From NCBI GenBank assembly GCA_902772455.1, contig CACYAW010000023.1:1-40567 (forward strand): a stretch of 40,567 nt of DNA. Reading direction: 5' to 3'. Every line of letters begins with the position of its first letter. Position 1 is the stretch's first letter. The position numbers and the translations under genes are program-made. Source of the DNA: an uncultured Bacteroidales bacterium. Lineage in GTDB: Bacteria; Bacteroidota; Bacteroidia; Bacteroidales; Muribaculaceae. Positions 3,324-7,331 of the stretch are shown in pieces. The notes below the pieces were generated by a model. The model was given only the letters and a program-made list of their open reading frames with translations. It made no database searches and was not told where the DNA came from.

Positions 3324-4634
3324 ATGGCATCTTTTATCGTAGAAGGAAACCACCGCCTGCACGGCGAAATCATACCTCAAGGAGCAAAAAACGAAGCGTT
3401 GCAGGTGATTTGCGCAACGCTGCTGACAACCGACGAGGTAGTCATCGAGAACGTCCCTGACATCCTGGACGTGAATAACCTGATTCACCTGCTCGGTGAT
3501 ATGGGCGTTATCGTCAAGAGTTTGGGCAATAGCACCTACAGTTTCAAGGCAGAACAAATCAACACCGGTTTTATCGAGAGCCAGGACTTCATGACAAAAT
3601 GTGCCCGGTTGAGGGGTTCCGTCATGCTGATCGGTCCGCTGCTGAGCAGATTGGGCAAGATGTATTTTGCCAATCCTGGAGGCGACAAGATTGGACGGCG
3701 ACGCCTCGACACCCATTTTCGGGGCATCTGTAACCTGGGGGCAAGCTACACTTTCGATAGCGAGAAGAAGGCCTATCGGTTTGAGACCCAAGGCCCGCTG
3801 CAAGGAACCTATATGCTGCTCGACGAGGCATCCCTGACCGGCACGGCCAACATCGTGATGGCCGCTGTAATGGCACGGGGTACCACGACCATCTATAACG
3901 CAGCGTGTGAGCCTTATGTTCAGCAACTGTGCCGGATGCTGAACCAGATGGGAGCAAAAATCACGGGCATTGCCTCCAACCTGCTGACCATCGAGGGTGT
4001 GGATGCTTTGCACGGGGCCCGTCACCGTATTCTCCCCGACATGATTGAGGTGGGCAGCTTCATTGGCATGGCAGCCATGACGGGCAGTGAACTGACCATC
4101 AAGAACGTGTCTTGGGAAAACTTGGGAATCATCCCCTACAGCTTCCGCCGGCTGGGCTTGAAACTGGAAAAGCGGGGTGACGACATGTTCATCCCTCGTC
4201 AGGAGCACTATGAGGTGGAGCGTTTCATGGATGGTTCCATCCTGACGCTGGCCGATGCGATTTGGCCGGGCCTCACACCCGACCTGTTGAGTGTGATGCT
4301 GGTGGTCGCCACCCAGGCCAATGGCAGCATCCTGATTCATCAAAAGATGTTCGAGAGCCGCCTCTTCTTTGTGGACAAACTCATTGATATGGGCGCCCAA
4401 ATCATCCTGTGTGACCCGCACCGCGCCGTCGTTATCGGCCATGACCACCACATCCGTCTGCGGGCAAACCACATGGTCTCGCCCGACATCCGTGCCGGCA
4501 TTGCCATGCTGATCGCCGCCATGAGCGCCGATGGCGTGAGCCGCATCGACCACATCGAGCAGATTGACCGTGGTTACACCAGGATTGAAGAACGCCTCAA
4601 CGCCATCGGTGCCAAGATTACCCGCATCGACTGA
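3324..4634 (+). CDS. murA: UDP-N-acetylglucosamine 1-carboxyvinyltransferase MurA (Cys-to-Asp type)
   Basis: MurA transfers enolpyruvate from PEP to UDP-GlcNAc, the first committed step of peptidoglycan synthesis. The protein has 436 residues, somewhat longer than the 419 of E. coli. Substrate residues Lys22-Asn23 (GAKNEA) are conserved, as is Arg126 (equivalent to E. coli Arg120). The mobile-loop cysteine that fosfomycin alkylates (E. coli Cys115, motif GGCTIG) is Asp121 here (GGDKIG, codon GAC at 3684-3686). The same change makes MurA of Mycobacterium and Chlamydia insensitive to fosfomycin while active, so this enzyme should be naturally resistant. It is in an operon with murB; its TGA stop is followed by a convergent gap carrying an IS110 element. 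Confidence 0.95.
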   Translation: MASFIVEGNHRLHGEIIPQGAKNEALQVICATLLTTDEVVIENVPDILDVNNLIHLLGDMGVIVKSLGNSTYSFKAEQINTGFIESQDFMTKCARLRGSVMLIGPLLSRLGKMYFANPGGDKIGRRRLDTHFRGICNLGASYTFDSEKKAYRFETQGPLQGTYMLLDEASLTGTANIVMAAVMARGTTTIYNAACEPYVQQLCRMLNQMGAKITGIASNLLTIEGVDALHGARHRILPDMIEVGSFIGMAAMTGSELTIKNVSWENLGIIPYSFRRLGLKLEKRGDDMFIPRQEHYEVERFMDGSILTLADAIWPGLTPDLLSVMLVVATQANGSILIHQKMFESRLFFVDKLIDMGAQIILCDPHRAVVIGHDHHIRLRANHMVSPDIRAGIAMLIAAMSADGVSRIDHIEQIDRGYTRIEERLNAIGAKITRID

Positions 4635-4763
4635 CATCAGGAGACTGTTGTCAAACTCACGCCTGAAAGATTTAATCGAGCTTCGCTCGAAAAATTAAAC
4701 AAAATCATTAATAAAATCAGAATAAATAATTGTTTTGATTGAATTATATACAAATTTTTGCTT
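4635..4763. other. Convergent intergenic DNA left of the IS110 element
   Basis: No gene is visible. A short hairpin, TCGAGC-TTC-GCTCGA at 4676-4690 followed by AAAA, may help end the murA transcript. The rest is AT-rich. The last bases, TTTTGCTT (4756-4763), are the target flank plus the proposed TT core of the IS110 insertion. Confidence 0.5.
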
Positions 4764-4867
4764 CCTAAGTTATTATGCAAGTATTTTGATGAAAATTTTC
4801 TTCAAAATGTGCAATAGTATTGAATCCGGCACAAAAGTCAACTAATATGCCGCTTGAAACGCTCGTC

Positions 4868-4901
4868 GGGGCTCTGCCCCTTGCCGCTAAGCGCTCCCCG
4901 A
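4868..4901. other. GC-rich hairpin in the IS110 right end
   Basis: GGGGC-TCT-GCCCC (4868-4880) forms a perfect 5-bp hairpin. An alternative longer pairing joins TCGGGG (4866-4871) with CCCCGA (4896-4901). It lies about 30-70 bases downstream of the transposase stop, so it may act as its terminator or as a right-end structural element. Confidence 0.45.
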
Positions 4902-4932
4902 TGTGTTTTTCATAGTTTATGGGCTAACGCGT

Positions 4933-5961
4933 TCAAGCTGCTTCACCATTTATCACGTGCCCAGACTGATAGTCCTGGCCGTTTCTCACTAATGCGTAGG
5001 CTATGTGGAGGAGTTTATTCTTGACGTTATTGATGACCACGCCGTGCTGTTTCCCCTGCGCTATCTTCCGTTGATAGTATTGCCTCATGGCATCATCGTG
5101 CCGGATGGCGGTTCTTGCTGCCATGGTGAGCACTCCCTTGAGCCGCAGGTTGCTCAAATGCCTCACGTCCTGTCTCGAGTCGAGTGTAGTTCCCGATATG
5201 TTGCGGAACGAGGCCACACCGCAATAGGTGGCCATCTTGTTGGCCGTCGGTACAACCTGGAAGTTGCCCGAAAAGACGATCAGTGCGACAGTGACCACCA
5301 GGCCGAAGCCTTTGATGGATTTCACGAGCTCGTAGTTCCTCTGCAGTTGCTCATCAGAACTGATCACCTCCTTCATGGCCTTCTCACATTCGGCAATGCT
5401 ACGCTCAAGCCGCCTTAATTCGCTATTGGCGTCACGGCGGATAAATTTGGCAGCCGGGCTTGCGGCCTGACCTTGGCTCTTTTGCGCTTTCAGACGGTTC
5501 TTGACTCCCTTGAGTTTGTCCACCAGGGTCTGACGGTACAGGAACAGGTCTTTCAATGCTGCCAGTTCTTTGTCAGGGAGCTCGAACAAGTTGGCCTTGT
5601 CGTGATGACGTCGGGCATAGTCGGCTATTGCCATCGAGTCCGCCTTGTCGTTCTTGCCGCGGCGGATGCCCAGGCTCTGCCTGATCTGCAACGCACTCTC
5701 GCGCCAGACATGCATACCATGCTCGGTCAGCCAGTGGCACATCTGTCGGTCGTAGGCGCCAGTGGTCTCGCAGCAGAACAGCCACTGCCCGCTGCTGGTG
5801 CCGCGCAGTGCCAGCCTCAGGTCACGGACCATCGAGCGATAGCCTTTCTTTCCGTTAGGGTACTGTGCCAGATACTCCGGCTGACGCTGGAAATCCGACT
5901 CAACGAAACTCACGTCAACAGTTTCTTTAGAAACATCAATGCCGATAAAATACTTTTTCAT
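4933..5961 (-). CDS. IS110-family transposase (bridge-RNA-guided DEDD/serine recombinase)
   Basis: This encodes a 342-residue recombinase that excises and inserts the element. The N-terminal RuvC-like DEDD domain has Asp9 (FIGIDVSKETVDV), Glu65 (CCETTGAYD) and Asp105/Asp108 (KNDKADSMAIADYA). These match the spacing of the IS621 catalytic residues. A helical linker (about 130-210) leads to the C-terminal Transposase_20 domain, which begins IKGFGLVVTVAL. It includes CGVASFRNISGTTL, where Ser256 aligns with the catalytic serine. All catalytic residues are present and the frame is open, so it is probably active. The upstream 200 bases carry the predicted bridge RNA, the arrangement seen in the IS110 group rather than IS1111. 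Confidence 0.95.
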   Translation of the reverse strand: MKKYFIGIDVSKETVDVSFVESDFQRQPEYLAQYPNGKKGYRSMVRDLRLALRGTSSGQWLFCCETTGAYDRQMCHWLTEHGMHVWRESALQIRQSLGIRRGKNDKADSMAIADYARRHHDKANLFELPDKELAALKDLFLYRQTLVDKLKGVKNRLKAQKSQGQAASPAAKFIRRDANSELRRLERSIAECEKAMKEVISSDEQLQRNYELVKSIKGFGLVVTVALIVFSGNFQVVPTANKMATYCGVASFRNISGTTLDSRQDVRHLSNLRLKGVLTMAARTAIRHDDAMRQYYQRKIAQGKQHGVVINNVKNKLLHIAYALVRNGQDYQSGHVINGEAA

Positions 5962-5986
5962 AACTTTGCGGTGTTACTTTGATTTT

Positions 5987-6165
5987 TGATTGACCGCAAT
6001 TAGTTGGGAGTTACTACCCTAAATAGGCTTAAAACCTAACTTCCTAATTGACTTTCAACTAATAAAATCCGGGGAGGCCAATGGCAAAATATAGGGTGTG
6101 AACCTAGCTTAATTAATTGATTGTCTCCCCGGCGGTCAATCATTACCTTCATACAACAAAGGTAA
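5987..6165 (-). ncRNA. Predicted IS110 bridge RNA with target- and donor-binding loops
   Basis: Read on the minus strand, about 179 nt fold into four parts. A 5' stem-loop pairs 6159-6165 with 6143-6149 (7 bp). A closing stem pairs 6133-6142 with 5987-5996 (10 bp, perfect). Inside it are two hairpins with large loops: 6125-6132/6069-6076 (8 bp, 48-nt loop) and 6056-6063/5999-6006 (8 bp, 49-nt loop). This resembles the known IS621 bridge RNA in size and order. The first loop holds AAUUAAGC (6114-6107), identical to the left target plus core and first right bases, and UUUUGC (6089-6084), complementary to the right target. The second loop holds UUAGGAAG (6047-6040), identical to the right end plus core, and UUAGGGU (6022-6016), complementary to the left end. 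Exact transcript ends are unknown. Confidence 0.72.
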
Positions 6166-6175
6166 TAAAAGCCGT

Positions 6176-6214
6176 GCAGCGATGATAGTTTGACGAAAAA
6201 ACTTTCATCGCTGC
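6176..6214. other. Subterminal 10-bp inverted repeat at the IS110 left end
   Basis: GCAGCGATGA (6176-6185) and TCATCGCTGC (6205-6214) are perfect reverse complements around a 19-base loop, ending 11 bases inside the predicted left end. It could form a hairpin on single-stranded or circular element DNA, or bind protein. Confidence 0.5.
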
Positions 6215-6233
6215 AAAGTTAGGGTTTAATTTC

Positions 6234-6248
6234 TCGGCCGTAGGCCGA
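6234..6248. other. Short hairpin between IS110 and the AlkZ-like gene
   Basis: TCGGCC-GTA-GGCCGA is a perfect 6-bp hairpin downstream of the AlkZ-like stop codon on the minus strand. It may contribute to termination of the long repair operon; no strong T-run follows. Confidence 0.35.
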
Positions 6249-6293
6249 TTTATAGTTGTGTCTAATGAGTTTTGCAACAACCTCATAAAAACT

Positions 6294-7331
6294 TTATCTT
6301 GACTTGAATTGTTGATACTGCTGCCAGGCTTCATAAATGGCGGCCGCAGCCGGTTCGCCATCGAAAAACCGCGTCTGGCAATCGTCCTTGAAAGGTGCCC
6401 AATTGCCGCAGATAATGCCGTCGTGGGCGATGATGGGCTGGAAGATGCCGCTGTTGTTGTGGGCTCGATGGGTGTGCTCCGTTGCGAGGACGATGTCGCG
6501 GCTTTTGTAACCAATGAGGTATTCATCGTAAGGGGGAATCAGGAAGCATTTGCCCTTGCGGAAACCCCGCGTGCGGCAGTCATCCGTCAGATAGAATTCC
6601 CGGCCCTTCCACTTCACGGCGTGAATCGTGTTGCCCAACAAGGCAATGCCCTTGCGGCAGTCGCCGATGTTCAGCCCCGACCACCACACGAAGTCCTCGA
6701 GCGTGGCCGGTTGGCGGCTTTGGAAATAGTTACGGGCAAAGCGCATCAGGGCCTCTTCACGGTCGATGGCGTTTCGCGGCCCCACTTTATCGGCCGCCAA
6801 GGCATAGGTGGCCTTCATGGGCAACAGGTCACCACTGCACAGAGTCCCCGATAGCTCGGCCATGCGTATGTGATAGGACAGCCTATGGACATCCATACTG
6901 ATATCCCGCTCGGCTAGAGCCTGGACGATGTCCTCTTTAGTCACGCTCCCCTTATCGGCAGCGGTCTGGACCAGCACATCCCTGATGCTCATCAGTTCCG
7001 TGTCGGGAATAGTGATTCTGTTGCTGTTCATCCAGCCGCGGGTGACGGCGATGGCCTTGGGGGCACACAGGTCGAGCATCCACCAATAGTCATCAGCCGC
7101 AACCAGCTGCCATGTGCCACGCATCAAGTGCAGACGGATAATCCGTCCGTCATCGAAAGCCGCCTTGAAAGCCCGTGCCGACGGTTTGCGCGTGCGCATT
7201 GCCACCGCCCAGCGCATCATGCGGTATTCCTGTGCCTGAATGGCGCCCATGTGGCTGACCACCTGAGCGGGATCGCAGAACTGCGGCGCGGCAAGCTGCT
7301 GGTTGAGAAGTCGGATAGCTACTGGATTCAT
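6294..7331 (-). CDS. AlkZ-like winged-helix DNA glycosylase (HTH_42 superfamily)
   Basis: This encodes a 345-residue protein of the HTH_42 family (formerly DUF1006), made of tandem winged helices. Characterised members (AlkZ of Streptomyces, YcaQ/AlkX of E. coli) are monofunctional DNA glycosylases that remove bulky N7-alkylpurines and unhook interstrand crosslinks. The N-terminal helix region has GAIQAQEYRMM, giving the catalytic QxQ motif at Gln32 and Gln34, the AlkZ form rather than QxD. LHLMRGTWQLV (about 97-107) and the C-terminal PPYDEYLIGYKSRD segment are also typical. It is the last gene of a six-gene minus-strand run that includes an AlkD-like glycosylase. I infer a role in alkylation or crosslink repair; the substrate is not known. 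Confidence 0.85.
   Translation of the reverse strand: MNPVAIRLLNQQLAAPQFCDPAQVVSHMGAIQAQEYRMMRWAVAMRTRKPSARAFKAAFDDGRIIRLHLMRGTWQLVAADDYWWMLDLCAPKAIAVTRGWMNSNRITIPDTELMSIRDVLVQTAADKGSVTKEDIVQALAERDISMDVHRLSYHIRMAELSGTLCSGDLLPMKATYALAADKVGPRNAIDREEALMRFARNYFQSRQPATLEDFVWWSGLNIGDCRKGIALLGNTIHAVKWKGREFYLTDDCRTRGFRKGKCFLIPPYDEYLIGYKSRDIVLATEHTHRAHNNSGIFQPIIAHDGIICGNWAPFKDDCQTRFFDGEPAAAAIYEAWQQYQQFKSR

Follow-up and report, generated by a model that had tools for sequence, protein, structure and literature searches.

An IS110-group insertion sequence in a Muribaculaceae genome with a predicted bridge RNA whose guides match its target and its own ends

Results

An IS110 element and its recombinase

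We analysed a 40,567-nucleotide stretch of DNA (contig CACYAW010000023.1; henceforth the window) from an uncultured Muribaculaceae bacterium, whose genome assembly comprises 3.15 Mb in 163 contigs. On its minus strand, between an EPSP-synthase-family gene that ends at 4634 and an AlkZ-like gene with its minus-strand end at 6294, we found an insertion sequence running from a left end at 6224 to a right end at 4761 (4761..6224), as delimited by the ends of 33 elements and by unoccupied copies of its target repeat. It carries an intact reading frame, free of stops, for a recombinase (transposase) of 342 amino acids (4933..5961, minus strand), and its non-coding ends measure 263 nt (left) and 172 nt (right).

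The recombinase matched the Pfam families DEDD_Tnp_IS110 and Transposase_20, scored above the cut-off of NF033542 and had PDB matches to ISCro4 (E 1.4e-21) and IS621 (E 8.3e-20). In an alignment of 11 recombinase sequences, residues D9, E65, D105, D108 and S256 were invariant; S256 is probably the catalytic serine, as it aligns with a serine of ISCro4. With a DEDD, RuvC-like N-terminal domain and a C-terminal domain containing the conserved serine, the protein is, as judged from its sequence, clearly an IS110 recombinase. Long subterminal inverted repeats are a mark of the IS1111 group, and elements of the IS110 group lack long end repeats. An inverted-repeat search of the window's copy alone found no inverted pair linking the element's two tips; a 12-nt, A/T-rich subterminal pair (11/12) linked 4788-4799 and 6198-6209. 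The predicted RNA (6165-5987) precedes the gene, which starts at 5961, and falls within the long left end, the position typical of the IS110 group. Another inverted repeat, of 17 nt (6199-6215 and 6175-6191; 94% complementary, with 7 nt between its arms), sits between the junction promoter motif (see below) and this RNA; its 10-bp core, GCAGCGATGA...TCATCGCTGC, recurs in two relatives (L004 and L005) and is not obvious in more distant ones.

The closest copies of the recombinase (88% and 87% identical) were found in metagenome assemblies named Muribaculaceae and Porphyromonadaceae. We found no close relatives in viral contigs, and none in phages searched at E 1e-40. Given that a scan of genome contigs yielded only two relatives, we used whole-genome searches; the comparison set comprised 33 IS110 elements including the window's, in 18 guide clusters, with both ends available for 29 elements. 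The window's own genome holds ends of a sister element at five contig edges (the contig end for L002, the contig start for L003, and L015, L016 and L017), which are 85-86% alike at the left end and 83-87% at the right. The sister element's two left flanks share CTGTCGGC and its three right flanks share CGRATTA, a site other than that of the window's copy; the left ends of L002 and L003 and the right ends of L015-L017 stop short of the loops at the contig edges. This genome also contains another lineage of IS110 (L007:1501-2493 and upstream sequence; recombinase 36% identical) with readable guides of its own, which match its flanks.

Anatomy of the predicted bridge RNA

The structured core of the predicted bridge RNA, delimited by folds and stem-arm tests, spans 5987..6165 on the minus strand and consists of a 5' stem-loop followed by two stem-loops with large loops, as expected of a bridge RNA. 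An earlier note on this DNA, made from the letters alone, had described a 7-bp stem-loop, a 10-bp closing stem and two 8-bp hairpins with loops of 48 and 49 nt, all of which we recovered on the minus strand. Specifically, the 7-bp 5' stem-loop (6143..6165; fold and alignment) is followed by the 5' arm of a closing helix (6132..6142), which pairs with a 3' arm at 5987..5997 to give 11 bp, or 10 bp when the first hairpin takes the shared C. This helix encloses a first, predicted target-binding hairpin (arms 6125..6132 and 6069..6076; 8 bp, 48-nt loop) and a second, predicted donor-binding hairpin (arms 6056..6063 and 5999..6006; 8 bp, 49-nt loop). The closing helix and the first hairpin were identified by arm tests, alignment and a separate inverted-repeat search, in which both were perfect inverted repeats, and the second hairpin by arm tests. 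The loop lengths given by the note stood, but it had missed a small stem-loop inside the loops, as in IS621; in the target-binding loop the folds place it at 6092..6106 (UAGG...CCUA), and a short stem-loop between both guides appeared in many of 23 folds.

The folding energy of the RNA corresponded to a z-score of -3.96, with 0/200 shuffles as stable. When the window's sequence was folded without constraints, the minimum-energy structure contained the closing stem and the first hairpin; the 8-bp stem of the second hairpin was absent, its 5' arm pairing locally. An alignment of four close relatives (the window's copy, L004, L005 and L009) had 96.2% of cells paired, a proportion that fell to 25.2-48.1% when partners were slid by one to three columns as a control. 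Five two-sided changes, all from L009, were seen in these four sequences, two in the closing helix and three in the first hairpin; there were none in the 5' stem-loop or the second hairpin, and the 8-bp second stem therefore rests on the comparison of divergent relatives.

Since a MAFFT alignment of 13 divergent RNAs misplaced the stem arms and was excluded from all counts, we sought the arms of divergent relatives element by element (the automatically located arms of L024 and L050 are probably wrong). Across 17 clusters, cognate arms outscored swapped or non-cognate ones for the first hairpin (25.4 vs. 14.6), the second hairpin (17.0 vs. 12.4) and the closing helix (14.6 vs. 10.3), and in each case 0/20,000 permutations reached the observed sum. 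The stem covariation that the earlier note had proposed as a check was thus found both in these arm tests and in the two-sided changes. The signal for the closing helix came from nine of these 17 clusters, and the remaining eight scored 12 or less against the non-cognate mean of 10.3. The helix is long in the close relatives of the window's element; its 5' arm is instead paired to the 5' stem-loop in the minimum-energy folds of six elements (L011, L012, L022, L023, L025 and L039). A search of window positions 4600-6600 against Rfam, up to E 10, gave three matches, all far below the gathering scores.

Guides match flanks and element ends across relatives

Four guide strings named in the earlier note were all present in the two loops. 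The target-binding loop contains the putative left target guide AAUUAAGC (6107..6114) and the right target guide UUUUG with one handshake base, C (6084..6089); the donor-binding loop contains UUAGGAAG, identical to the right end (6040..6047), and UUAGGG, the complement of the left end, with one handshake base, U (6016..6022). When each loop was shuffled base by base 100,000 times, both target strings occurred together at a frequency of 4e-5 and both donor strings at 0, frequencies that flatter the match because the strings had been picked beforehand.

To compare guides with flanks, we used a TAnnTTTG-like box to place left ends and TAGNNNN to place right ends, a rule in which the guides play no part. 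Where several candidates fitted, the end was chosen by hand with the sequences and some guide matches already known; the least certain are the left ends of L054 and L057 and the right end of L056. Clusters and their representatives were also hand-picked, and a second set of representatives, run in the test unrestricted by position, gave the same outcome. The guide tests omit L008 and L013 (the same records as L004 and L005) and non-representative cluster members, as well as, because the ends are missing, L047 in the left-flank test and L051 in the right-flank test.

We found that the left guide, restricted by position, matched its cognate left flank at 7.00 of 9 bases on average compared with 4.43 for non-cognate flanks, and the right guide its cognate right flank at 5.24 of 6 compared with 3.42 (17 clusters each; 0/20,000 permutations in both cases). 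The cognate flank was strictly best in 10/17 clusters and best or tied in 13/17 for the left guide, and in 8/17 and 15/17 for the right guide. Left guides carry the left-flank sequence itself, right guides are complementary to the right flank, and both stand at a roughly constant distance from the donor loop, such that the first loop matches both strands of the target and co-varies with the flanks among relatives. Poor fits were seen for the left guide (4-5/9) in L045, L053, L054 and L057, and for the right guide (3-4/6) in L046, L047 and L055; the left guide of L004 has seven matching bases one base out of register, and in the L050/L055 cluster guide matching mostly fails.

The second loop matched the joined ends of the element. 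In 15 clusters the donor guide agreed with the right end at 7.8/8 bases vs. 5.9 for non-cognate ends (0/20,000 permutations), a result that is partly circular since the donor loop had itself been found by looking for the best agreement with the element's own right end (in L005, L021 and L051, with that of a relative). The other donor guide agreed with the left end at 5.5/7 vs. 5.0 (19/20,000 permutations). Taken across clusters, this matching upholds the earlier assignment of the first loop to the target and of the second to the donor ends.

A dispersed palindromic repeat as target, and a single-base core

The left flank with the core base (6224..6248, minus strand; TCGGCCTACGGCCGAGAAATTAAAC) belongs to a dispersed palindromic repeat, which continues across the element into the right flank (4701..4760, minus strand; CAAAAATTTGTATAT...). 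A search of the window's genome for GGCCGAGAAATTAAGC that allowed 1 mismatch gave 11 sites, one of which is the insertion itself; with up to 3 mismatches there were 61 sites, vs. 7 for a control. The other ten close sites all continue with AAAA, like the window's right flank past the core. Five of these unoccupied sites read AATTAAGCAAAA, exactly as both target guides together specify, and the other five have AATTAAACAAAA, the form seen at the window's left flank. TCGGCC stands just before the site's GGCCGA in 10/10 copies, which makes the target a dispersed palindromic repeat. Copies of this repeat (L058-L069) consist of a TCGGCC-n-GGCCGA palindrome followed by AATTAARCAAAA, and at some loci (L060 and L073) a copy faces an inverted one at a distance of about 55 bases, as in bacterial interspersed mosaic elements.

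The unoccupied sites and the alignment with relatives also place the core. Rather than the AA proposed in the earlier note, the base shared by target and element is a single C, which occurs at both 6224 and 4760 (minus strand). The note's 8/8 match of AAUUAAGC to the left target was a composite of AATTAA from the left flank and GC from the right; the guide is A/T-rich, and the contiguous left flank, AATTAAAC, matches it at 7/8 positions by Watson-Crick pairing and at 8/8 counting a G.T wobble. Among the 29 elements with both ends, C was shared in 26; the base after it was also shared in L046, L050 and L055, the base before it in L004, L009 and L023, and only L046 shared CT. In ten insertions of a related element with a common guide (see below), the left junction retains an A before the C, as in the unoccupied sites, and the right junction retains the element's own G. 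The corresponding base at the window's insertion is consistent with a C core and is not decisive, because its unoccupied sites have either A or G there.

Handshake guides are conserved in many, though not all, IS110 systems. We examined the bases that follow the right-hand guides after dropping clusters whose guide position scored below 5/6, which kept 14 (target loop) and 13 (donor loop) of 16. The first base past the donor-loop guide formed a Watson-Crick pair with the pre-core base of the target in 10/13 clusters and with that of the donor in 1/13; its counterpart in the target loop paired with the donor in 10/14 (14/14 with G.U) and with the target in 5/14 (6 with G.U). The second base behaved similarly (donor loop: target 8 vs. 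donor 1 of 13; target loop: donor 9 vs. target 6 of 14). At the third, the target loop gave donor 6 vs. target 5 of 14, and the donor loop went against the handshake (donor 7/13 vs. target 3/13). The three-base score of the target loop was reached by 53/20,000 permutations; the donor loop was counted without permutation. By analogy, the first bases after the right-hand guides resemble the handshake pairing reported for IS621 (PMC11208158), with the third base of the donor loop contrary. A handshake base would explain why UUUUGC and UUAGGGU, the strings given in the earlier note, agree completely with the inserted junctions.

Related elements with altered and with repeated targets

Two cases may be regarded as natural reprogramming experiments. 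In the first, L007, from the genome of the window itself, and L024, from another genome of the same genus, have recombinases that are 96% identical, and the arms of the first hairpin and both donor guides are identical. Within the target loop they differ at the two target guides and at one base in the stem-loop between them, with further differences outside this loop, including the 3' side of the donor hairpin. Their flanks differ accordingly: the left flank of L007 reads GTGCAAAC (guide match 9/9) and that of L024 TGAGTAAC (8/9), and the right flanks read CCGAAGG (5/6) and CCCGTGG (6/6), respectively.

In the second case, ten copies (L010-L012 and L038-L044) of one related element, all with left guide CGTCCCTAC, are present in two genomes of one genus (assembled in one contig and two contigs). 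The guide sequence stands at the left junction 9/9 in 9/10 copies and 8/9 in the tenth, which answers the earlier note's proposal to compare the flanks of other copies; in the comparison across clusters, too, the match exceeded all 20,000 permutations. The right guide matches at 4/6 in 8/10 of these copies. One of the two genomes contains 12 contiguous, hence unoccupied, sites GTCCCTACAARTCG, compared with 0 for a reversed control pattern. Nine of the ten copies adjoin GCGTCCCTAC and one adjoins CCGCCCCTAC; these flanks look palindromic by eye.

A promoter motif at the joined ends

The primary sigma factor of Bacteroides has a consensus of TTTG at about -33 and TAnnTTTG at -7, as given in the text of PMC7366714, which also notes a failure to recover the -33 motif in Flavobacterium johnsoniae. 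The left end of the window's element contains a -7-type box, TAACTTTG (6214..6221, minus strand), and its right end a -33-type TTG with the donor sequence TTAGGAAG, followed by the core C (4760..4780, minus strand). Joining right and left ends places TTG, 19 or 20 nt and then the TAnnTTTG-like box in succession, so the joined ends would form, at the level of a motif only, a Bacteroidota-type promoter. Among the 29 elements with both ends, TTG was in place in 28 (the exception being L054) and an exact TAnnTTTG in 24; the latter count is partly circular because the box was used to place left ends, and only the TTG box is independent.

Discussion

We conclude that the element at 6224-4761 (minus strand) is almost certainly an IS110-group insertion sequence with a left-end bridge RNA, a predicted circle-junction promoter and guide-directed insertion at a core C. 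The anatomy of the RNA, the matching of guides to flanks and ends, the co-varying stems, the unoccupied target repeats and the junction promoter motif are all evident in the sequences compared. In the mechanism we propose, the excised circle would join the right and left ends, assembling a Bacteroidota-type promoter from which the bridge RNA would be transcribed. The RNA would bind the DEDD/serine recombinase; its first loop would pair with both strands of a target of about AATTAA[A/G]C-AAAA in the dispersed palindromic repeat, and its second loop with the element's own joined ends, after which recombination at the shared C would insert the element. For circle formation, transcription, recombinase binding and catalysis we follow the literature on IS621, to which these steps are presumed analogous.

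Several other readings deserve consideration. A stable leader directly upstream of a start codon, more stable than its shuffles, might be a cis-acting regulator of transposase translation, with the guide-like matches as relics of the ends; the small RNAs of ISPpu9 were once thought to modulate recombinase expression (text of PMC11208160). Such a regulator could function without matching the DNA that flanks each insertion, and yet the matches track the flanks in 17 clusters and change with them between L007 and L024, making this reading very improbable. Even harder to credit is the idea that the recombinase finds its target by protein-DNA contact and that the loop matches are copied or inherited flanking sequence. 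Loop and flank strings could share ancestry within single elements, but the arrangement of left guide as flank and right guide as complement, with a roughly constant spacing to the donor loop, and the different sites occupied by 96%-identical recombinases (L007/L024) speak against it.

It is also conceivable, though unlikely, that the RNA is a genuine bridge RNA of which the window's copy is decayed or silent: its right guide is short (5 nt and one handshake base) and its left flank is one base off the guide. Against decay, the reading frame, both ends and all stem arms are intact and the catalytic residues are present. We retain the reading of a guide-directed IS110 element, supported as a bridge RNA by family matches, flank matching and stem covariation. 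With the reservations given above, the predicted RNA has the defining features that sequence can address, apart from the CT core of IS621, and probably works as an IS110 bridge RNA does.

These observations extend a readable bridge-RNA logic to Bacteroidota, in which the guide varies in many related elements and the neighbouring DNA varies to match. They provide a native set of recombinase, RNA, target and promoter that is testable as one unit. A search of the open-licence literature (excluding preprints and figures) found no paper on Bacteroidota bridge RNAs among the matches listed, and 'Bacteroid' is absent from the main text of PMC11208160. It is tempting to propose that Bacteroidota IS110 elements form a branch characterised by a closing-helix three-way junction, a single-base core, a Bacteroidota-type junction promoter and retargeting between palindromic-repeat families by swapping only the left and right target guides; we offer this tentatively, as a close call on which we lean slightly against.

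Among known systems, the texts on IS621, an IS110-group element of E. coli, describe the nearest counterpart. Its RNA of 177 nt likewise precedes the recombinase, within the left end (PMC11208160), with a 5' stem-loop, a target loop and then a donor loop (PMC11208160, PMC11208158). Each loop likewise consists of a stem, left guide, small stem-loop and right guide (PMC11208158), the 5' side of the loop pairing with the bottom strand and the 3' side with the top strand (PMC11208160, PMC11208158). IS621 rebuilds a promoter over the circle junction (PMC11208160, PMC11208158), for which the joined ends of the window's element have a candidate motif of Bacteroidota type, in contrast to the sigma-70 type of IS621. 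Reported IS110 targets include repetitive extragenic palindromes (PMC11208160), to which the palindromic repeat targeted by the window's element is comparable. The two recombinases are distant (E 8.3e-20), and the single C contrasts with the CT core described for IS621 and related orthologues (PMC11208158). The clearest structural difference is the helix that closes around both loops in the window's element and its close relatives. We claim no novelty for it, nor, after viewing by eye the folded leaders of six more distant plasmid IS110s (two of them from Bacteroidota), its confinement to one branch. As judged from text descriptions, IS621 lacks such a closing helix: we deduce that a donor loop at nucleotides 110-177 (PMC11208158) of a 177-nt RNA leaves no room for one. 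If required for function, the helix would represent a design constraint without counterpart in IS621.

The seekRNA of ISEc21, also of IS110 type, resembles the present system, according to the text of PMC11187229, in being a guide RNA from the upstream non-coding region, in placing the bottom-strand match on the 5' side with the top-strand match after it, in a promoter that arises in the circle (here predicted from a motif) and in a known case of natural redirection, ISMch6. It targets a linear site within some IS3-family transposase genes (PMC11187229), unlike the dispersed palindromic repeat found here. The IS1111 group, as described in PMC11208160 and PMC11187229, shares the recombinase family and the guide-RNA principle but places its RNA after the gene, in the right end, whereas that of the window's element lies upstream.
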